DNA from: a virus
DNA: 38,724 nt
Direction: 5' to 3' (one strand)
IMG/VR virus record: IMGVR_UViG_3300033145_000247
Coordinates: 1-38,724 of that record
The notes beneath the pieces were generated by a model, which did no database searches, was not told the origin of the DNA, and was given only the letters and a program-made list of their open reading frames with translations. The first letter of the stretch is position 1, and each line of letters starts with the position of its first letter. The position numbers and the translations under genes are program-made. Below, piece after piece: positions 1,615 to 37,166 of the stretch.

Positions 1615-2112
1615 ATGGTCGATAATTCTGATAAAGTCGCCTGTCCCACGCCGGATGCCCGACGGCGAGATGTCGCTGTCCGGCTCTACCAGGCTGCTTT
1701 CAAGATTACAGATACCGCACTCGCTAAAATCTACGGGGTTTCACAGCCGACAATCAATTCCGACCGCCATTCAGATGCCTACTGGGATGAACTCGATAAC
1801 CTCATGGATAATCGCATGTATGAGGTTCAGCACAAGGCATGGGAAGTCATCAGGAAGGCGATAGACGACGGCGATAAAGGGGTAGCACTTGAACTCCTGA
1901 AGAACACGGACAAGCGTTTCGTGCGGCAACTCAGGGCTGAGATCGTCAACGTCCGCGCACCTGCTGATGAAGTTGATAATGAAATCAGTGATATACTGAG
2001 AACCGAACTTGAACGAATCGAATTAAGCGTAGAATTCGATCCATCCGATAATGGAAGCGGAAACGGAAATAAAGGAAACGGCGAAGCCACGATTGACGAT
2101 CCCGCAATTTAA
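1615..2112 (+). CDS. terS: Terminase small subunit
   Basis: The 165-residue protein lies directly before the large terminase. Its N-terminal 60 residues contain a helix-turn-helix-like segment (ALAKIYGVSQPTINSDRH, about 36-53), as expected for the subunit that recognises the packaging site. The middle is helical (QHKAWEVIRKAIDDGDKGVALELLKN), the usual oligomerisation region, and the acidic, Gly/Asn-rich tail (about 148-165) would contact the large subunit. No good Shine-Dalgarno precedes ATG 1615. The last 62 bases overlap the next gene. The family call rests on position and architecture. Confidence 0.75.
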   Translation: MVDNSDKVACPTPDARRRDVAVRLYQAAFKITDTALAKIYGVSQPTINSDRHSDAYWDELDNLMDNRMYEVQHKAWEVIRKAIDDGDKGVALELLKNTDKRFVRQLRAEIVNVRAPADEVDNEISDILRTELERIELSVEFDPSDNGSGNGNKGNGEATIDDPAI

Positions 2113-3487
2113 GCGGCTCATTCAGCGACGGTACTGGCAGAAGCGTATCCGATCAGTAACGAAGTACGAACCCCACTCGGAAAAACAGAACTCGATCCAT
2201 ACCGCAATTGATTACGGCGCGACCCGGATTGCCGAACTCGCCGGTAGGCGATGGGGCAAGACGATGGCGAGTGCGGATGAATGCGTTATCGAGTTTCCTT
2301 TCGGTCCCGACGGCAATCTACCGATTCGGCATATCTGGATCGTCGGCCCGGAATTCGATGTAACCGACCCCGTATTTGAATACGTCTGGGATTGGGCTGT
2401 CGATAAGCGGTGCATTAACGGGGTAAAGCCGGTTAAGAAATCGGCACGTGAGCGGTACATAGAATTCCCCTGGAAATCCCGCCTGTCATGCCTGACAACC
2501 CGCAACCCGGACAGCCTACAGGGTAAGGGCGTCGTCAAGATCATCGGCGATGAATTTGCCGATCATAAACCCGGAACGCTGAAAACTTACCTGGAACCCG
2601 TTACCGCCGACACGAACGGCGTAATCGTTCTCATATCGACCCCGGACGGTCCGCTCAATCACTTCACGGCAACGTATGATGACTGGCGCGAGCAATCAGC
2701 CACGGACCCAAGATACCACACCGTAGAGGCGACCTCATGGGAGAACCCTGAACTGTCCCGGCAATGGCTGGAGGATTACAAGCGGGATTGTGAGCGGTCC
2801 GGCTCAATGGACATCTACCTGCAGGAAATTATGGCCCAGATCGTGGCCCGGTCCGGCTCCATCTATCCGCAATTCAAATATGAGAAAAGCGGCAAGCCCT
2901 GGCATGTCGGGCATTATCCGTACATCCCCGGTGTTCCGGTCGATTTCGGCATTGACTGGGGTTACGATCATCCGTTTGCCTGTCTGTTCGGACAGGTGAT
3001 CGACGGCGACCGGATCCGCATATTCGCTGAAATCTCACAGCGCGGCTTGTCCCCGGTCGATCAACGCAACCGGGTCCTGTCGAAACTTGACGACATAGCC
3101 GCCTTTGAACCGGATGCCGAGAGCATCTACGACATTATGGGGATGGTCTATGCGGACCCGTCCGGTGCGGCATCTAAAAAACTTTTCCGTGATGCCGGAT
3201 TCAGTGTCTGGGAACCGTCGAAACGTGACAGAACCCGCATAAATAGTGTCAATGACGGCATTGTCGAAGTCAGGAAATTGTTGTCACGACCCGATATTCC
3301 AGGGTTGGAAATTGACAAAAGCTGTGTTAATCTGATAAAAGGTATCCAGAACTATGTATGGAGTGACAAGGCGCAACTCGAAAGGCCGGTTAAAATCGAT
3401 GATGATGAGTGCGATGGCTTGCGTTATTATGTCATGGGGGCAATCGGACTGCATACAGGTGCCCCGGCATTTATTGACTTGAACTGA
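2051..3487 (+). CDS. terL: Terminase large subunit (ATPase and nuclease)
   Basis: This 478-residue packaging motor has a Walker A motif AGRRWGKT at residues 64-71, a Walker B IIGDE at 164-168 and a coupling-type VLISTP at about 193-198. The C-terminal RNase H-like nuclease carries the expected spaced acids: D302 in GIDWGYDHP, D369 in YADPSG and D455 in DDECDGLRYY. The length fits the family. It would bind TerS-marked DNA, pump it through the portal and cut it. It is followed 4 bp later by the portal gene. The start at ATG 2051 overlaps terS by 62 bp. A somewhat later start is possible, but all motifs lie downstream. Confidence 0.95.
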   Translation: MEAETEIKETAKPRLTIPQFKRLIQRRYWQKRIRSVTKYEPHSEKQNSIHTAIDYGATRIAELAGRRWGKTMASADECVIEFPFGPDGNLPIRHIWIVGPEFDVTDPVFEYVWDWAVDKRCINGVKPVKKSARERYIEFPWKSRLSCLTTRNPDSLQGKGVVKIIGDEFADHKPGTLKTYLEPVTADTNGVIVLISTPDGPLNHFTATYDDWREQSATDPRYHTVEATSWENPELSRQWLEDYKRDCERSGSMDIYLQEIMAQIVARSGSIYPQFKYEKSGKPWHVGHYPYIPGVPVDFGIDWGYDHPFACLFGQVIDGDRIRIFAEISQRGLSPVDQRNRVLSKLDDIAAFEPDAESIYDIMGMVYADPSGAASKKLFRDAGFSVWEPSKRDRTRINSVNDGIVEVRKLLSRPDIPGLEIDKSCVNLIKGIQNYVWSDKAQLERPVKIDDDECDGLRYYVMGAIGLHTGAPAFIDLN

Positions 3488-3491
3488 CTCA

Positions 3492-5594
3492 ATGACTGAT
3501 TCAATTCTCAATCGATTCGCTACATGGTTACTCAGGAAAACTGAGAGCAGGGCTATCGGTAAACCCGCTGTTCCGTGGGAGTGGATAACCGGCTCCGGTT
3601 CAGGATCAACCTATAACTACAACACTTACATCAGGGACGGCTTTCATGCAAACCCCGTAATCTATGCCTGCCTGAATATGATTGCCCGGACGACTGCGAC
3701 TATCGGAGTTGCCATTTCAGTCAATGGGGAAGTCCTGGAACTCGACAAGATACCGAAAGAATTACAGCCGCTTCAAGCCCTGATAACACAGCCGAATCCG
3801 AACCAGGCCTGGAAGGAATTCATTGAGGAATGGTCGATAAATCAGAACGTCGGCGGTGCGGCATACATCCACGGAATCGGAATCGGAACGCAGCGGATCG
3901 GTGAGTTTGAACGGGCTATGACATCGCCCGAGATGTGGCTTATTAAACCTGACAGGGTAACGCTCCTGAAGGACGGTCCGCTTGTTGTCGGCTTCCGTAT
4001 CGACTCAATAACGAACCGGACGATAGAGGAGATGTTCTATACTGCATTTCCAACCGGCCTGAATAATTCTGAGGGCTTGTCTGCACTGAAGGCAGCGAGC
4101 AGGTCTGGCGACGCTCACAGCGCGGCAATCAAATGGAACGAACGGCTCTTGTCGAATTCCGGTAAGCCGTCCGGCCTGGTCGGGATTCAGGGCATGTCAT
4201 CCTGGACAAAAGCTGAACGTGAGCAGTTTGAGGAAGATTGGCAAAAACGATATCACGGTCCCGATAACGTCGGCAAAATAGCGGCTATCCCGGCGGATGG
4301 ACTCACTTACACGACGTTCGCCATGTCGCCTAAAGATATGGACTGGCTCGGTGGTAAGCAGGATTTCATGCGCGATATTGCAGCCGCGCTAGGTGTTCCT
4401 TCGATCCTTATCGGCGACCCGAATAGTCGCACATACAGCAACTATAAAGAGGCTCGGAAAGCGTTATATCAGGAAAAAACGCTGCCTGATACGATGCATT
4501 TCCTGTCTGAATTAAATCATTTTATCGATGGTCGATTCAGGCCCGGAACTAAGATCGTTCCAATAACGGATCATATCGATTGCCTGAGAGCGGACCAGGA
4601 CGCGCTCGTGACCCGGCTCAAAACCGCTGACTGGATGACCTTTAACGAGAAGCGGGCCGAGATGGGACTGAAGGAAATTAAAGATGGAGATATTCTGCTC
4701 GTGCCGTTCAATCTTGTCCCGATATCGATTGTCGGAGCGGGAGCGGGAAAAGCGAGTGAGGGACCAATCGAGTCCCGGTCTATCAGCAAGGCAAGCCTCT
4801 ACCAGACAGAGGAGCAACGGCAAGCTGCATTCGACCGACACGACCGAACACGACGGCTATTCGAGAAACGATACGAAGCGAAAGTTGCCGAATACCTTCA
4901 GAAGCAAGTCGAATCGATAGCCAAGCTCCTGATCGAGAATGATACCGGGACGTTCGCACGCGGCGAGAAGCGCGACCTCCCGGACAACTTTGTGCAACTC
5001 GCTTTCGATTTCGAGTCTGAAGCTGAAAGATACGTTGCGGAATTTGAGGCTCTACAGATTGACCTTACAATCGAATTCGGGCAACAGGCGATAAATCAGT
5101 TGATTGCGGAAGGTGTTTTATTCGATATCGAGCGACCGGCATTGAGACAGTTCATCGCACTTGATTTAGCCGCCCGGTCGAAGCTGATAAACGGTACGAC
5201 GGCAACCCAGATGCAGGGAATTATCAATGCGGGACTCGCTGAGAATGAAGGCATCTACGTGATTCGTGACAGGCTGTTAGATAAATTCGGCGACCTGTCT
5301 GTTGCCCGGGCGCGGACTATCGCACAAACCGAGGTCGGACGGGCAGCGACACAGGCGACACAGGAAGGCTTCAAGCAAATGGGAGTCGCACAAAAAGAAT
5401 GGCTGTCGGCACGCGACGGTAACGTGCGCGATACTCACACGGCGATGGACGGCCAGGTCGTGAATCTGGATGATGATTTCACGAGTCCGAGCGGTGCAAC
5501 AGGTTCGGGTCCGGGATTGCTGAATGATCCCGGAGAGGATATAAATTGCCGATGCGTTACAGTGCCGCTGGCGGTTGGAGAGGAAAAGATATAG
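3492..5594 (+). CDS. Portal protein fused to MuF-type minor head protein
   Basis: Residues 1 to about 420 resemble HK97-family portals: a FHANPVIYACLNMIARTTA segment, a QPNPNQAWKEFIEEW segment and the loading-ring region around IAAALGVPSILIGDP. Residues about 470-700 are a MuF/gp7 (SPP1)-type minor head domain with the signature TEVGRAATQATQEGF at about 612, followed by DTHTAMDGQVV and the closing INCRC. In most phages these are two neighbouring genes; here they are one 700-residue protein. A fusion places one MuF domain on each of the 12 portal subunits, unless it is cleaved, perhaps by the protease encoded next. Confidence 0.92.
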   Translation: MTDSILNRFATWLLRKTESRAIGKPAVPWEWITGSGSGSTYNYNTYIRDGFHANPVIYACLNMIARTTATIGVAISVNGEVLELDKIPKELQPLQALITQPNPNQAWKEFIEEWSINQNVGGAAYIHGIGIGTQRIGEFERAMTSPEMWLIKPDRVTLLKDGPLVVGFRIDSITNRTIEEMFYTAFPTGLNNSEGLSALKAASRSGDAHSAAIKWNERLLSNSGKPSGLVGIQGMSSWTKAEREQFEEDWQKRYHGPDNVGKIAAIPADGLTYTTFAMSPKDMDWLGGKQDFMRDIAAALGVPSILIGDPNSRTYSNYKEARKALYQEKTLPDTMHFLSELNHFIDGRFRPGTKIVPITDHIDCLRADQDALVTRLKTADWMTFNEKRAEMGLKEIKDGDILLVPFNLVPISIVGAGAGKASEGPIESRSISKASLYQTEEQRQAAFDRHDRTRRLFEKRYEAKVAEYLQKQVESIAKLLIENDTGTFARGEKRDLPDNFVQLAFDFESEAERYVAEFEALQIDLTIEFGQQAINQLIAEGVLFDIERPALRQFIALDLAARSKLINGTTATQMQGIINAGLAENEGIYVIRDRLLDKFGDLSVARARTIAQTEVGRAATQATQEGFKQMGVAQKEWLSARDGNVRDTHTAMDGQVVNLDDDFTSPSGATGSGPGLLNDPGEDINCRCVTVPLAVGEEKI

Positions 5595-24823: not shown

Positions 24824-25165
24824 ATGGCGAAGAATTATATCAGCCGGGGCGACGTATTAACGCTTACCGCCCAAGCAGCCCACACATCAGGCTCACCGTA
24901 CAGGATCAGCGGATTCAATGGTGTCGCACTGATTTCTGTCGAGTCGGGCGAACAGTTGAGTTTCCAGCTTTCAGGGATCTTCGAGTTCACAATGAGCGAT
25001 GCCGCTGAAGTCGGCAGCCGGATATTCATCGACCTCAATGAGGGACTTCATGCCACCGGCGGCGGTCCCCAACCTATCGGCCAGGACTGGATACTGTTCG
25101 GTCGAGCCGTCACTGCAAGCGACGCGGAAGGCAAGTTTTACTGTCGCTTGCTTCAGTCAGACTAA
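24824..25165 (+). CDS. DUF2190-type capsid decoration-like protein
   Basis: Started at ATG 24824 (AAGGAG at 24811-24816), the protein is 113 residues. The opening MAKNYISRGDVLTLTAQAA and the beta-barrel-like phrases FNGVALISVESGEQLSFQLSGIFEFT and DWILFGRAVTASDAEGKFYCRLLQSD match the DUF2190 pattern, usually a small head protein encoded beside the capsid gene. Here it lies about 17 kb from the capsid gene, in the early region directly before the RNA module trio. It may have moved there, or may have a different job such as binding the RNAs, which is speculation. Confidence 0.7.
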   Translation: MAKNYISRGDVLTLTAQAAHTSGSPYRISGFNGVALISVESGEQLSFQLSGIFEFTMSDAAEVGSRIFIDLNEGLHATGGGPQPIGQDWILFGRAVTASDAEGKFYCRLLQSD

Positions 25166-25206
25166 CTCTCGATGGGTTAGCCCACGAAAACTTGGTAAGG
25201 GGCGAC

Positions 25207-25240
25207 GCGGCCCGTTCTTAGCCCGCACGGGCAAGGCCGC
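25207..25240 (+). other. Nested GC-rich hairpin before RNA module 2
   Basis: GCGGCC (25207-25212) pairs with GGCCGC (25235-25240) and encloses a second stem, GCCC with GGGC, around 25221-25232. It occupies most of the gap between the DUF2190-type gene and RNA module 2, and no T-tract follows. It may belong to the same precursor RNA. Confidence 0.55.
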
Positions 25241-25248
25241 AAAGCACC

Positions 25249-25375
25249 TTGATAATTGAGTTGGATGCTTGACCGCAACCAGGCCGACAATGCGGGTGGG
25301 GTTGTCACGGTGACAGCGCGCAATCCGGGGTTCGAGTCCCTTTCCCCCCACACAAGCATCCTACTGAGTTATCAA
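25249..25375 (+). ncRNA. Structured RNA module 2 (T-arm-like cargo)
   Basis: Arms 25249-25271 and 25353-25375 form a 23-bp helix with the constant outer half (TTGATAATTGA against TGAGTTATCAA), a G-G mismatch at position 10 and a U-U at position 14. The inner half GGATGCTTG/CAAGCATCC is perfect and unique to this module. The 81-nt cargo has CCGCA/TGCGG, GTGGGG (25296-25301) with CCCCAC (25346-25351), TGTCA-CGG-TGACA, and a hairpin GGG-TTCGAGT-CCC like a tRNA T arm. There is no D arm or usable anticodon arm, so it is not a normal tRNA. It is preceded by CAAAGCACC, a linker repeated before modules 3 and 4. Confidence 0.78.
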
Positions 25376-25384
25376 AAAAGCACC

Positions 25385-25492
25385 TTGAAAATTGAGTAGG
25401 GCATCTGTTACCGGACCCGGTATGCGCAGAGGTCAAGATGGTTTCTAGGGTTCAAATCCCATTATCTCACAGGTGTCCTACTGAATTATCAA
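25385..25492 (+). ncRNA. Structured RNA module 3 (T-arm-like cargo)
   Basis: Arms 25385-25407 and 25470-25492 pair over 23 positions with the constant outer half, an A-A at position 5 and G-G at position 10. The inner half GTAGGGCATCTG/CAGGTGTCCTAC is kept paired through two G-U pairs. The 62-nt cargo contains TACCGG-AC-CCGGTA and a hairpin GGG-TTCAAAT-CCC resembling a T arm. The linker AAAAGCACC joins it to module 2. No ORF or ribosome site is seen. Confidence 0.78.
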
Positions 25493-25503
25493 ACAAAAGC
25501 ATC

Positions 25504-25606
25504 TTGATAATTGAATGAGTGCTCGTGCAGAAGTCCGGCGGTGTGAGGCTCCAGGGTCAAAGCATGTCGGCAGCAAGTCGCGACCGGGCACTCATTGAGT
25601 TTTCAA
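25504..25606 (+). ncRNA. Structured RNA module 4
   Basis: Arms 25504-25525 and 25585-25606 pair over 22 positions: constant outer half, U-U at position 5, G-G at position 10, and inner half ATGAGTGCTCG/CGGGCACTCAT with one U-G pair. The 59-nt cargo is different again (GTCCGGCGG, CTCCAGGGTCAAAGC, CAGCAAGTCGCG) and lacks the clear T-arm hairpin. It follows linker ACAAAAGCATC. The AGGAG site of the next gene starts 4 nt after the module. Confidence 0.75.
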
Positions 25607-25622
25607 ACACAGGAGTTGAGAA

Positions 25623-25844
25623 ATGTCGGAATTCATATCCTCACACAAACTTCTACATCTCACTGACAACCTCCGAGTAGTATGTTTATCCGATGAGGAT
25701 TTATTGAAAGAATATCTGGGAGCCGGACGAATCGGCGATACTCACGCATTCAGATTCGGATTTGCACGCTCAACTTTAGAGGATGCCTTACAGCACATTG
25801 AAGAACTTGAAAGGAAAATAAACAAGGAGGCCGACGGTGACTGA
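25623..25844 (+). CDS. Small protein before Gp157-like gene, unknown
   Basis: The 73-residue protein (MSEFISSHKLLHLTDNLRVV and onward) ends in a helix LEDALQHIEELERKINKEADGD. AGGAG at about 25610 lies just after RNA module 4, so its translation may depend on that RNA being processed or folded. It overlaps the next gene by 8 bp. No family is recognised. Confidence 0.65.
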   Translation: MSEFISSHKLLHLTDNLRVVCLSDEDLLKEYLGAGRIGDTHAFRFGFARSTLEDALQHIEELERKINKEADGD

Positions 25845-33526: not shown

Positions 33527-33748
33527 ATGCTGACACTTGCCGAAATCGAAAAGCGAATCAAACCATTTAAAGGCCGTCTACACAGAGAAACCCGGCGACT
33601 TTTTGGTAATCCTACTTATTCGCTTTGGTGGGAACAGGGCGAATGGGAATTGAATATTACGGAGAATCGGGTTGATCGAATCAGATTCCGAAAGATCGCG
33701 ACAACGATCATCATTGGATTGGAAGCTCAAAATGCAAATTCAGCGTGA
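33527..33748 (+). CDS. Small basic protein, unknown
   Basis: ATG 33527 has GGAGG at 33514-33518. The 73-residue product (MLTLAEIEKRIKPFKGRLHRETRRLF and onward) is basic with aromatic WWEQGEWEL in the centre. It overlaps the following HNH gene by 17 bp. No family is recognised. Confidence 0.6.
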   Translation: MLTLAEIEKRIKPFKGRLHRETRRLFGNPTYSLWWEQGEWELNITENRVDRIRFRKIATTIIIGLEAQNANSA

Positions 33749-34058
33749 CAAATGGCGACTTTACAAGCGCACTCAGCGGGCGTATCCGCTGTACGGTCAG
33801 CCGTGCGAGGTCGTGGGTTGCTGGCGGGTAGCCGTTTGCCGGCATCACATTGACGGGGACGTGGAGAATATTAACCAGGGCAACATAAATTTGCTCTGCC
33901 TGCCCCATCACCGCGCTTTTGATACCCTGATACTCAATCATGCCCAGATTGCCGCCATACGCGATTCTGTACAGCCAGGAGCGGTTCTCGCAGAGCGGTT
34001 CGGGATATCCAAGTCTTACAGTAACCGGATCAGAGCGGGAACGAGGTTGAGGGCGTGA
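33732..34058 (+). CDS. HNH-type protein with C-terminal helix-turn-helix
   Basis: ATG 33732 has GGAAG upstream and gives 108 residues. Metal and active-site residues are C25, C30, H38-H39 (CRHHIDGD), N52 and C56-x-x-H59-H60, the HNH arrangement of short phage HNH proteins. Residues 82-103 (GAVLAERFGISKSYSNRIRAG) form a helix-turn-helix that would give target specificity. It is a third HNH-type gene, distinct from those at 419 and 30680, and has normal operon placement without its own promoter, so it may be a resident rather than mobile gene. Confidence 0.8.
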   Translation: MQIQRDKWRLYKRTQRAYPLYGQPCEVVGCWRVAVCRHHIDGDVENINQGNINLLCLPHHRAFDTLILNHAQIAAIRDSVQPGAVLAERFGISKSYSNRIRAGTRLRA

Positions 34059-34154: not shown

Positions 34155-34397
34155 ATGGCAAGTGCCGCTGAAGCATTCAAGAAAGATGCCGATCCGAACT
34201 GCACGAAATGTCTCGGGGCCGGATATGCACTCGTTAGTATCGAGCGCACAGATGAAGATCGTCAAGCGATAAAAGATATCCTGGACGATGAAAGCCTCAC
34301 CCCGACACAGAGGTTGCGGAAGGTCCGAGATGAATATGGTCCAATAGCCGGGATGGTGAAATGCCCGCACTGTTTCCGCGGACCAGAATTGAATTGA
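34155..34397 (+). CDS. Small protein with DnaJ-type zinc knuckles
   Basis: ATG 34155 follows AAGGAG. The 80-residue protein has CTKCLGAGY (16-24) and CPHCFRG (70-76), similar to the CxxCxGxG repeats of DnaJ zinc fingers, around a central acidic helix (TDEDRQAIKDILDDESLTPTQRLRKVRDEY). The stop at 34395-34397 overlaps the -35 box of the next promoter. The 96-bp gap before it holds no supported gene. Function unknown. Confidence 0.68.
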   Translation: MASAAEAFKKDADPNCTKCLGAGYALVSIERTDEDRQAIKDILDDESLTPTQRLRKVRDEYGPIAGMVKCPHCFRGPELN

Positions 34398-34422
34398 CAT
34401 CAGCCGAAACTTTTGCTATTCT
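34394..34422 (+). promoter_or_regulatory. Promoter for the replication genes
   Basis: TTGACA (34394-34399), 17-bp spacer ending in TGC, and TATTCT (34417-34422) form a near-consensus sigma70-type promoter. Transcription would begin near 34429, at a short leader frame (34430) and the folded leader described next. Confidence 0.85.
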
Positions 34423-34429
34423 GTACGGG

Positions 34430-34474
34430 ATGAACCACCGTGAATACCAACACATTACAATCAAATTGCCTTAA
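34430..34474 (+). CDS. Possible 14-residue leader peptide
   Basis: ATG 34430 stands 7 nt after the -10 box and opens a 14-codon frame (MNHREYQHITIKLP) ending at TAA 34472-34474, five bases before or within the structured leader. Its first codons overlap the 5' strand of helix 1-3, so a translating ribosome would break that helix. This may be chance, since no Shine-Dalgarno is present and length alone gives little support. Confidence 0.3.
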   Translation: MNHREYQHITIKLP

Positions 34475-34537
34475 CCGGGACGCCTCGCTTTCATCTCACG
34501 GTGGTTCGCGAGGCCGTCCCGTGAGGATATGAGATGA
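34432..34537 (+). promoter_or_regulatory. Crossing-helix mRNA leader before the replication initiator
   Basis: Segment 1 (34432-34443) is perfectly complementary to segment 3 (34496-34507) over 12 bp. Segment 2 (34477-34488) pairs with segment 4 (34508-34520) over 12 bp with one bulged C. Segment 3 lies wholly inside the loop of helix 2-4, so the two helices form a pseudoknot or exclude each other. In addition TCATCTCA (34491-34498) can pair with TGAGATGA (34530-34537), which contains the ATG at 34534. The arrangement looks like an attenuator or translational switch. An operator or replication role for the DNA repeats is the alternative. Confidence 0.7.
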
Positions 34538-35490
34538 CGCGCATGTATCAGCCGATCCAGACAAAGTATTGGGATAACGTCCGGCGCAAGGGTCTACTGC
34601 CAGATGAAATTTTGGTTGAGCTTTATCTCGTCACAAACCAGGCTTGTGGACCTTCCGGTGCGATGATTGCCGCGCCCTCGACAATTGCATATTATACCGG
34701 GATTCCAGACGAGAAATCCGATAGTGACTTATTCGGAAATATGCGCGTCGAGACAGCGTTGCGCGGACTCGAATCAAAGAAGCGCATCGAGATATTCCCC
34801 GGCGGGTGGGTTTGGGTGGTTGGCAAGTGGGAATATGAATCCACCAAGACGGAGCAAGTGCAGAAAGCCGTTGTGATCGAATTGACATCTGCGCCGGATT
34901 CCCTTGTTCAAGCCTTTTTCGATAGGTACACTGATACCCTCAATCCGACCCTCACCGTGACCCTCACTGATAGGCTCACTGTGACCGTACCGCCTATAAA
35001 GATAATTAATAAAGATAATAATAAAGAAAATAATAAAGAACACATACCCGGCAAGCCGGGTGCGCGTGTCAAAGTTGGACCGATAGCAGAGGTTCTCAAA
35101 AGGGACCAGATCGAGTACCCGGAAATCTACGCTTTCATTCAGGAGCTTTTCCCGGATGTCTGGACTGATAAGCCGAAAGAACTGAAAGCCCAGGCCGATG
35201 CGTTCCGACTGATCCTCTATCGAGATTCGACGGAATTAATGGAGGATGTCCAAGCCTGCCTGCGATGGGCCAAGGCCGACATCATCCCTGGAGCCGGACA
35301 TGGCGAATGGCAGGGTTGGGGTGTCCAGTTCAAATCGTTCCGGGGACTCAGGCGCAAGCGGGACGGCGTATCGAAGTTTGAAAAGATATGGGCGAGCTAT
35401 CAGAACAGCTTGAAGAAGCCGAAATCACATCTGGCCGCTCTTGATGATAGGGGCAAATTCAGCGGGACGAGCGGGAGGAAGAAGATATGA
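34534..35490 (+). CDS. Replication initiator (lambda O-like, winged-helix N-terminus)
   Basis: The 318-residue protein starts at ATG 34534 with GAGGA 6 nt upstream. Residues 1-105 resemble the winged-helix domain of phage replisome organisers (QTKYWDNVRRKGLLPDEILVELYLVTN, APSTIAYYTGIP, ALRGLESKKRIEIFPGGWVWVV). A repetitive linker follows (TLTV, TLTD, RLTV; about 134-152), then a charged Asn/Lys region and a C-terminal domain (ELFPDVWTDKPKELKAQADAFRLIL and WQGWGVQFKSFRGLRRKRDG) that probably contacts the loader. The linker DNA contains iterons and an AT-rich tract, as in lambda O. It binds the origin and recruits the helicase with the DnaC-like protein at 36035. Confidence 0.8.
   Translation: MTRMYQPIQTKYWDNVRRKGLLPDEILVELYLVTNQACGPSGAMIAAPSTIAYYTGIPDEKSDSDLFGNMRVETALRGLESKKRIEIFPGGWVWVVGKWEYESTKTEQVQKAVVIELTSAPDSLVQAFFDRYTDTLNPTLTVTLTDRLTVTVPPIKIINKDNNKENNKEHIPGKPGARVKVGPIAEVLKRDQIEYPEIYAFIQELFPDVWTDKPKELKAQADAFRLILYRDSTELMEDVQACLRWAKADIIPGAGHGEWQGWGVQFKSFRGLRRKRDGVSKFEKIWASYQNSLKKPKSHLAALDDRGKFSGTSGRKKI
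34924..35061. other. Candidate replication origin: 12-bp iterons, AT-rich tract, palindrome
   Basis: Within the initiator gene, copies of a 12-bp unit begin at 34936, 34948, 34960 and 34972 (core ACCCTCAC, with weaker units at 34924 and 34984). About 10 bp later comes a 46-bp tract (about 34995-35040) made nearly only of A and T with a few G. It is followed by ACCCGGC-AA-GCCGGGT (35046-35061). Iterons plus an AT-rich unwinding element inside the initiator gene is the layout of lambdoid origins. Confidence 0.7.
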
Positions 35491-36038
35491 AAGTCCTCGT
35501 CGCATGTGAATTTTCAGGTATCGTCCGGGACGCTTTCCGTGAGCGCGGGCACGATGCCTGGTCGTGCGACCTGCTGCCGACTGAGAAACCGGGTCCGCAC
35601 ATTCAGGGTGACGTGCTTGAAATCCTCGATAAGGGCTGGGATTTGATGATTGCTCATCCACCCTGCACACATCTTGCCGTGTCCGGAGCGCGATGGTTCA
35701 AGGACAAGAAATATGAGCAGGCAAACGCTCTCGGATTCGTGCGGTTACTCATGGGAGCTTTCATAGATAAAATTTGTATCGAGAATCCAATCAGCGTGAT
35801 ATCGACCCGGATCAGGAAGCCAGATCAGATAATCCAGCCGTGGCAGTTCGGGCATGGGGAAACGAAAGCAATCTGTCTCTGGCTGAAGGGATTGCCGCTG
35901 CTTGAGCCGACCGATATTGTACCCGGACGCGAAGCCCGGATACATAAAATGTCGCCTTCACCGGATCGATGGAAAAACCGAAGTCGTTTTTATCACGGAA
36001 TCGCGCAGGCAATGGCCGAACAGTGGGGTAAAATATGA
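35487..36038 (+). CDS. C5-type DNA methyltransferase-like protein, divergent
   Basis: The 183-residue protein overlaps its neighbours by 4 bp. It starts MKVLVACEFSGIVRDAFRERGHDAWSCDLLPTE, the SAM-binding motif I-II pattern of C5 cytosine methyltransferases (FSG), then DLMIAHPPCTHLAVSG (52-67) in place of motif IV PCQ, and ENP at 99-101 like the ENV/ENP motif VI. It is far shorter than classic C5 enzymes and lacks a target-recognition domain. Short proteins of this pattern are common in phages. They may methylate DNA at a relaxed site or act on another base. C60 would be the nucleophile if the chemistry is conserved. Confidence 0.75.
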   Translation: MKVLVACEFSGIVRDAFRERGHDAWSCDLLPTEKPGPHIQGDVLEILDKGWDLMIAHPPCTHLAVSGARWFKDKKYEQANALGFVRLLMGAFIDKICIENPISVISTRIRKPDQIIQPWQFGHGETKAICLWLKGLPLLEPTDIVPGREARIHKMSPSPDRWKNRSRFYHGIAQAMAEQWGKI

Positions 36039-36679
36039 CTGATCCTGATTTCAAAACCATCCTGAAAGCGATAACCGAACGCCGCCGGTCCATCCTGCCG
36101 CCGCGCATCTACAACGTCCTGAACGCGCTGAACGTCGAAGCGGACGGAATCGTGCAGGCCTGCAAGTGGATCGTGCATCTCATGGAGGGCAAGTGCATCG
36201 TGTTCAGCGGTCCGATCGGTTCAGGCAAAACGGTATCAGCCGCGTTCATGGCGTGTTACTGGACCTGGCTTGCCGCATGTCGTCCGGTTTATGAAGCCTT
36301 GAAAGCCGATCCTGAAATCAAGGGCGACAGCTTGCGGATCATGGAGGAGGCAATCCATGTCAGTCATCACCGCGCCAGGTTCAAGTGGGTGGTCGCCAAA
36401 GAAGTGATTCAGATCGAATGGCACGAACTCGATTCAGGTTATGAAGGACTCTTGATAATCGAAAATTTGGGTCGGGAATACTGGAAGCCCGGATCAGATT
36501 ATGCGCCGTGCAGATGGGATGATCTTTTCGACATTCGTTACAGCCGATACCTTCCGACGATCATCACCACGAACCTTACGCCGACCGAATTCAAAACCAG
36601 GTACGGTAAGCATAACGGATCAAGGCTGCGAGAGTGGGGGATATGGACAGAGATTGTAGAGGAGGATATGAGGATATGA
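36035..36679 (+). CDS. DnaC-like AAA+ helicase loader
   Basis: The 214-residue protein has Walker A GPIGSGKT (59-66), a Walker B position YEGLLIIENLG (136-146), sensor-1-like TIITTNLTPTEF (175-186) and an arginine region GSRLREWG (195-202), the DnaC/IstB order. The Walker B acid pair, normally DD or DE, reads E-N here, so ATP hydrolysis may be slow or rely on the first Glu. The N-terminus (about 1-40) would bind host DnaB. Together with the O-like protein it implies use of the host helicase and polymerase. Confidence 0.85.
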   Translation: MTDPDFKTILKAITERRRSILPPRIYNVLNALNVEADGIVQACKWIVHLMEGKCIVFSGPIGSGKTVSAAFMACYWTWLAACRPVYEALKADPEIKGDSLRIMEEAIHVSHHRARFKWVVAKEVIQIEWHELDSGYEGLLIIENLGREYWKPGSDYAPCRWDDLFDIRYSRYLPTIITTNLTPTEFKTRYGKHNGSRLREWGIWTEIVEEDMRI

Positions 36680-36873
36680 AAATCAGGAGCATGGAAGAAA
36701 TTAGACTTTGGGCTGATGATACCGGCCGAAAGATAATCAAACATGATGATTCAGCCTTGTTTGTATTAATCACAAATGGGAATAGAAGTATGCCGCTATC
36801 AAGGCCGCGCTTCAGGCGGGCCTGCACGCGAATGATAAAGATTGACATCGAAAACAAAAGGTGGAAGGAATGA
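36676..36873 (+). CDS. Small basic protein, unknown
   Basis: ATG 36676 overlaps the loader stop (ATGA). The 65-residue protein starts MKIRSMEEIRLWADDTGRKI and ends RRACTRMIKIDIENKRWKE. It is basic and probably alpha/beta. No motif is recognised. It also overlaps the next gene by 1 bp. Confidence 0.65.
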   Translation: MKIRSMEEIRLWADDTGRKIIKHDDSALFVLITNGNRSMPLSRPRFRRACTRMIKIDIENKRWKE

Positions 36874-37166
36874 TGAAACTCACCGATAGGCAGCTACAAA
36901 TCCTCACGTTCATTTCGATGTTTCGAGCGATAAAAGAGCGACCTCCAACGTATCAAGAAATCGGGAACGCCTTCGGATTCACCTCACGCGGCGCATGGGA
37001 TCACGTGAAAGCCCTAGTCAAAAAAGGCGTAATCGAAAAGGGCCGATATGGGAACTGCTCGATCCACATAACGCTGCTCGGCCAGGAAACGCTGGACCTC
37101 GAAAAGAACACGCTGGCAATCGAAGCTGGGACGATGACGGCATGGGAAATGGTGGCTGTGACATGA
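36873..37166 (+). CDS. Winged-helix regulator (LexA N-terminal-like)
   Basis: The 97-residue protein begins MKLTDRQLQILTFISMFRAIKERPPTYQEIGNAFGFTSRGAWDHVKALVKKGVIEKG, an almost textbook LexA DNA-binding domain. A short C-terminal helical tail follows with no protease dyad. ATG 36873 is preferred over ATG 36870 and GTG 36861 because GGAAGGA ends at 36869. It may bind SOS-box-like operators or phage-specific sites. It is the third protein of this type in the genome. Confidence 0.82.
   Translation: MKLTDRQLQILTFISMFRAIKERPPTYQEIGNAFGFTSRGAWDHVKALVKKGVIEKGRYGNCSIHITLLGQETLDLEKNTLAIEAGTMTAWEMVAVT

Follow-up and report, generated by a model that had tools for sequence, protein, structure and literature searches.

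Plasmids are already known to limit their replication initiators by leader RNAs and leader peptides. In pT181-type and trp-type attenuators, competing hairpins decide on termination before the regulated gene. The rep leader of ColIb-P9 forms crossing pairings, and a pseudoknot activates repZ. For the C4 antisense RNA of P1/P7 (RF01695), which derives from the same strand and the same promoter, two separate segments are complementary to the downstream ribosome-binding region. Initiator synthesis in the I-complex plasmids requires that a leader peptide be translated (PMC10286972). Immunity of the satellite phage P4 involves a same-strand CI RNA (seqA/seqC) that leads to premature termination of the replication genes (PMC4825925), while the Gifsy-1 prophage leader at IsrK/orf45-anrP combines a terminator and two alternative folds with an upstream ORF that is linked to the downstream gene (PMC4825925).

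Here we analyzed a 38,724-base IMG/VR virus record (the window) that encodes tailed-phage head, tail and DNA-metabolism genes, focusing on the leader of its replication initiator gene. In this leader four segments follow one another in the order S1-S2-S1′-S2′, so that the helices S1-S1′ and S2-S2′ are interleaved.

The I-complex rep leaders (repB/repY leader peptide; ColIb-P9, IncB, IncK) are alike in having a leader ORF upstream of the initiator and crossing RNA pairings. However, their control RNA is an antisense transcript from the opposite strand and their pseudoknot activates, whereas both complements of the phage leaders lie on the same strand; moreover, the leader AUG of the phages is predicted to be leaderless, and in several members the geometry suggests that S1 and S2 are mutually exclusive. 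A consensus scan revealed no consistent antisense promoter opposite the phage leaders. The P4 system shares the same-strand complementarity inside a replication-operon leader, but there a processed RNA pairs with two target copies and the transcript is untranslated, while the phage leaders combine one complement per element (the only one present for each in the window's leader) with a putatively leaderless ORF. IsrK resembles them as a bistable leader with a terminator and an upstream ORF; its short RNA, however, activates in trans and its target is an antiterminator system, whereas the target of the phage leader is the replication initiator and action in trans is only a candidate feature. The target of C4 is an antirepressor rather than an initiator, and the C4 covariance model (RF01695) gave no match at the gathering score in the window or its relatives, and none at E ≤ 10 in the window or the L002 leader. 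Finally, the competing stems of the pT181 and trp attenuators share a strand, whereas the 1:3 and 2:4 pairings of the phage leaders share none and would exclude each other by topology. No Rfam family matched the window leader or those of the relatives' loci that were tested; low-score microRNA-like matches were dismissed as generic hairpins. We regard the phage leader as a case of RNA leader control of replication initiators that lies outside any named family, and the I-complex, P4 and IsrK systems lack this combination. We did not find the layout described in the open-licence literature, which given that scope is weak evidence of novelty.

Results and discussion

The initiator gene and its surroundings

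The gene downstream of the leader (34534–35490, + strand) encodes a protein of 318 aa that had no direct Pfam or PHROG match. Its residues 7–128, however, aligned with a profile of its relatives (hhalign probability 95.4%, E 1.8e-8), and 10/10 relatives in this profile matched phrog_6251 (replisome organizer DnaA-like) or phrog_1701 (DnaD-like helicase loader). Membership in the DnaD/DnaA-like phage initiator family is thus supported by the profile match, and the label of replication initiator or replisome organizer rests on the family. A DnaC-like loader is encoded downstream (36035–36679). The Shine-Dalgarno sequence of the initiator, GAGG, was located at 34523–34526 (+ strand), ahead of the AUG at 34534–34536.

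Several other features of the records were observed in passing. A small protein with a LexA DNA-binding domain (36861–37166; PF01726, E 1.2e-12) resembles phage repressors and is a possible regulator of the initiator region. The protein encoded at 33672–34058 displays, by eye, an HNH-like pattern (CEVVGCWRVAVCRHHIDGD...LLCLPHHRAFD) and matched neither Pfam nor PHROGs. A DUF5131 protein (PF07505, 37762–38592) and an ASCH-domain protein (PF04266, 30939–31499) may be RNA- or nucleotide-related phage proteins. An intergenic stretch of 670 nt (25165–25837) contains three tandem long hairpins built from repeated arms (AAAGCACCTTGATAATTGAGT...), located at 25245–25380, 25380–25495 and 25500–25610 with fold z values of –4.0, –4.0 and –3.4. 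The first two enclose a tRNA T-arm-like sequence (GGGTTCGAGTCCC, GGGTTCAAATCCC); ARAGORN and Rfam gave no match for these hairpins, nor did any named phage. In the L002 record, the terminase large subunit (1901–4057, – strand) appears, by eye from the translation, to contain an intein-like insert (CFAPETLVYTTKGKIRIDEL ... QANGILAHNC).

Interleaved helices upstream of the initiator

A sequence-only reading of the window had proposed two interlocking helices and a third pairing upstream of the initiator, all of which we recovered on the + strand. S1 (34432–34443, GAACCACCGTGA) is the perfect 12-bp complement of S1′ (34496–34507, TCACGGTGGTTC), exactly as claimed. The second helix, given there as 34477–34488 with 34508–34520 and one bulge, is in fact one pair longer: S2 (34476–34488, CGGGACGCCTCGC) forms 13 bp with S2′ (34508–34521, GCGAGGCcGTCCCG), leaving one bulged C. 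S1′ occupies part of the apical loop of S2 and is immediately followed by S2′, which in turn ends directly before the Shine-Dalgarno sequence. An HDV-like ribozyme was considered for this arrangement and dropped, as S1′ and S2′ leave no room between them for a P4 stem. The third, 8-bp pairing is likewise present: S3 (34491–34498, TCATCTCA), a segment of the S2 loop, is the perfect complement of S3′ (34530–34537, TGAGATGA), which covers the start codon of the initiator. Its 5′ strand has positions 34496–34498 in common with S1′.

The interleaved-helix score of the window leader (54.2) was the highest of 1542 stretches of 200 nt from both strands of the whole genome (mean 29.4, sd 4.2; best unrelated stretch 43.2), and exceeded that of dinucleotide shuffles with a z of 6.9. 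With S2 given, the complementarity of its loop to the upstream S1 was equaled by 0/300 shuffles. The fold of the leader as such had a z of –3.9. S3 alone was modestly unusual (p about 0.02); it was not shared by the leaders of the relatives, so that it is confined to the window so far and was rejected as a general family feature.

Promoter and leader reading frame

The near-consensus promoter that had been noticed just before S1 was confirmed by a consensus scan. This sigma-70-type promoter (34394–34422, + strand) consists of TTGACA (34394–34399), a 17-nt spacer and an extended –10 element, TG-N-TATTCT (34417–34422), and reaches 10/12 consensus matches plus the TG. Transcription would start at 34429–34430. 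The frame of 14 codons overlapping S1 was found as described (34430–34474, + strand; MNHREYQHITIKLP*): its AUG overlaps the start of S1, 7 nt past the –10 box and at –104 relative to the initiator, and its stop lies 1 nt before S2. From this position the ORF is predicted to be leaderless.

The relatives showed the same promoter-to-S1 arrangement. We compared AUG positions, without making use of the helices, between the 22 structured and the 59 unstructured leaders of our first set. An AUG exactly 6–7 nt past a TAnnnT box, as expected of a leaderless start, occurred in 7/22 structured leaders (0.63 expected) and in 0/59 unstructured ones. An ORF starting at –135 to –85 and ending within –12 to +32 of the initiator AUG was present in 12/22 structured leaders (0.94 expected), and both features together, a leaderless AUG and an ORF reaching the initiator start, in 6/22 (0.06 expected; maximum of 1 in 500 shuffles). 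Since the leaderless AUG recurs in relatives, the 14-codon frame of the window, whose start at –104 coincides with theirs, probably represents more than a mere overlap. Examples of leader peptides are those of L016 (MALVKEKRINLLSVSGVVQFVILNGRHSNIRLCL*), L020 (MCKSFDIFFINISSPLMFRQSSSVWDFCS*) and L032 (MDKKAKSLFNNCGQQLQDCLGFSDLSSSLGVFARKNYG*). The nearest analogue of the window is L132, where TTGACA-16-TATAAT is followed by an AUG 6 nt later and an ORF of 16 codons that ends at the base of S2, with a Shine-Dalgarno sequence before the initiator. S1 usually starts inside or shortly after the leader AUG, suggesting that S1 pairing and leader initiation should compete.

We also noted that L017 and L032 have leader peptides of related appearance (GLGFAKSLSSRLLPF / CLGFSDLSSSLGVFA) but different S1 elements, so that the leader may evolve at another rate than S1.

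Recurrence of the topology in phage leaders

The first lead came from two distant relatives (26% identity), in which the order S1-S2-S1′-S2′ was identical and the bases were wholly different. Further scans brought together about 105 distinct leaders of the initiator family, which were scored by one procedure. Including the window, 24 of them share the S1-S2-S1′-S2′ topology with unrelated sequences. This 24-member family was picked by score and curated; its members are metagenomic contigs from various metagenomes, and one of them (L093) stems from a Candidatus Aegiribacteria assembly. Seven leaders (L053, L063, L035, L051, L104, L087 and L058) were left out as ambiguous or as high-GC artefacts. 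A different variant is seen in L053 and L063, some 50 nt ahead of their initiator AUG (2001): a terminator-like hairpin (AAGCCC...AAAGGAGGGCTTTTT) whose loop and 3′ arm contain the Shine-Dalgarno sequence and which immediately precedes the start codon.

An interleaved score of z ≥ 4 was reached by 15/81 leaders of the first set, as against 1/243 random stretches from the same records. When S2 was kept fixed and only the upstream bases were shuffled, S1 attained p ≤ 1/301 in 8/49 leaders, where 0.2 would be expected. Covariation in relatives, which the sequence-only reading had proposed as a check, was observed in sub-class C, five leaders with similar flanks (L013, L031, L147, L167 and L044). 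In their S1 helix both sides had changed in 5/8 pairs and 40/40 cells were paired, a level that 0/500 shuffles reached and that sliding the partner abolished, in a sample of only five sequences. As its members have topology rather than sequence in common and their helices cross, the family was not suited to a covariance model.

The structure was absent from roughly three quarters of the relatives' leaders that we examined, indicating that it is dispensable for the initiator. In four named phages whose initiators are related, the gene sits within an operon that lacks this leader. Nothing useful came from nucleotide searches for close relatives of the leader sequence, from a tblastn search of named phages with the initiator of the window, or from scans of viral sequences that used the DnaC-like loader and the upstream ORF of 87 aa as queries.

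In most family members S2 ends just ahead of the initiator start. A run of at least four T at this end was present in 14/24 members (4.2 expected), and an S2 of this kind looks like an intrinsic terminator. In four leaders (L013, L031, L167 and L054) the Shine-Dalgarno sequence lies within S2′ and its complement in the 5′ strand. No U-run follows S2 in the window, which at this point does not have the form of an intrinsic attenuator, and the stop of its leader ORF lies 59 nt ahead of the initiator; the termination and the stop-start coupling of the relatives thus both fail there.

Probable competing folds and alternative explanations

In minimum-free-energy folds, RNA ending at S1′ folded into S1 in 24/24 members, and the full leader folded into S2 with S1 freed in 23/24, the exception (L068) keeping S1 and not S2. 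This result is partly circular because the helices had been chosen for strength, although the winning of S2 had not been chosen; moreover, such folds cannot hold both helices at once and say little on kinetics. Geometry gave a further indication. In L014, L031, L044 and L147 the connecting loops measure 0/3–4/0–1 nt and the helices 8–11 and 16–21 bp, too short a connection for both helices to form in one molecule. A true H-type pseudoknot, in which S1 and S2 together would activate translation of the initiator as in ColIb-P9 repZ, is for this reason unlikely as an explanation of the family, even though the helices cross and the loops of the window (32/7/0 nt) make coexistence of S1 and S2 marginally possible. 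The putative coupling to a leader peptide does resemble the I-complex plasmids (PMC10286972), but S2 often has the form of a terminator, for which a pseudoknot that activates would have no use. We thus favour mutually exclusive folds over a static pseudoknot. Of the switch layout suggested from the window, by pseudoknot or by competing folds, the switch-like character is well supported, with the topology present in 23 other phage leaders; a static pseudoknot is the less favoured option.

Two further explanations do without a regulatory RNA fold. The helices could act as DNA, either as inverted repeats to which the initiator or a repressor binds or as a portion of an origin, in keeping with their place beside the initiator gene and with the S1 and S2 arms of the window, which are near-perfect inverted repeats without G-U pairs. 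Family-wide, however, the sense strand folds better than the reverse complement (15 vs 5 leaders with z ≥ 4) owing to G-U pairs, as is expected of RNA and not of DNA sites; the helices also lie at similar distances from the 5′ end of the RNA and from the initiator AUG, and S2 ends in U-runs, all of which makes this quite improbable. Even harder to sustain is the view that a small protein-coding gene precedes the initiator and the helices are incidental. Open frames of 28–45 codons do reach the initiator start in many relatives, but apart from the L017/L032 pair the peptides have no visible common sequence, the frame of the window stops before S2, and sub-class C has no such frame although its S1 covaries. 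The absence of a leader ORF from sub-class C (L014, grouped with it by geometry, has a possible one) indicates at the same time that the ORF is not essential to the layout. A less likely reading is self-antisense feedback: since the S2 loop of each leader is complementary to the 5′ end of the leader made after it, the same leader RNA, terminated or processed after S2, could pair through S1′ in trans with the S1 of new leaders. It would block their leaderless AUG and favour S2, so that genome copies limit the initiator and define a group for immunity or copy number. The sequence of S1 varies freely from phage to phage with its complementarity kept, as would be expected of a specificity element, pairing in cis is incompatible with S2 in several members, a U-run is often found at the S2 end, and the P4 CI RNA and IsrK are known same-strand analogues (PMC4825925); the missing U-run of the window speaks against it. 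With similar reserve, the leaders might be regarded as a sequence-independent phage leader-RNA family, in which transcription begins right at the start codon and a terminator or blocking hairpin carries, in its loop, an antisense to the 5′ end of the same RNA.

Proposed mechanism

We consider the leader to be a co-transcriptional RNA switch that is coupled to leader translation and limits initiator expression, a reading to which we assign a probability of about 0.6. What the sequences themselves show is the promoter, the placement of the leader ORF, the conserved topology, selection on the complementarity and, in many members, an S2 in the form of a terminator or ribosome-site hairpin. The RNA would start at or next to the leader AUG, with S1 at that 5′ end. 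As S1′ is made before S2′, S1-S1′ should pair first and hold S2 open. Once S2′ emerges, the more stable S2 hairpin would take over and turn the initiator off. Where a relative has a U-run this would happen by termination, and in others by hiding of the Shine-Dalgarno sequence; in the window, S2 would occlude the ribosome site, perhaps with the help of S3. The identity of the ON fold is inferred. A ribosome on the leaderless AUG would compete for S1. In most ORF-bearing relatives it would traverse S2 as far as the initiator start, which translational coupling would then re-open, while in the window it would stop at 34474 with its footprint over the 5′ strand of S2. The predicted outcome is a limited pulse of initiator per transcript that depends on translation of the leader, and such a switch may tune replication.

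Conclusions

Environmental phages that are unrelated to one another appear to limit their replication initiators by a shared RNA logic, in which the topology is conserved and the sequence is not. This would explain why sequence-based RNA families miss the layout. A predicted leaderless AUG that lies in or next to a pairing in competition with a terminator or blocking hairpin represents a simple design. If self-antisense feedback were true, each leader RNA would silence the next, providing same-strand copy-number control and immunity groups with no separate antisense gene, and if the pairing in trans is real, S1 would define phage compatibility groups that are readable from sequence.
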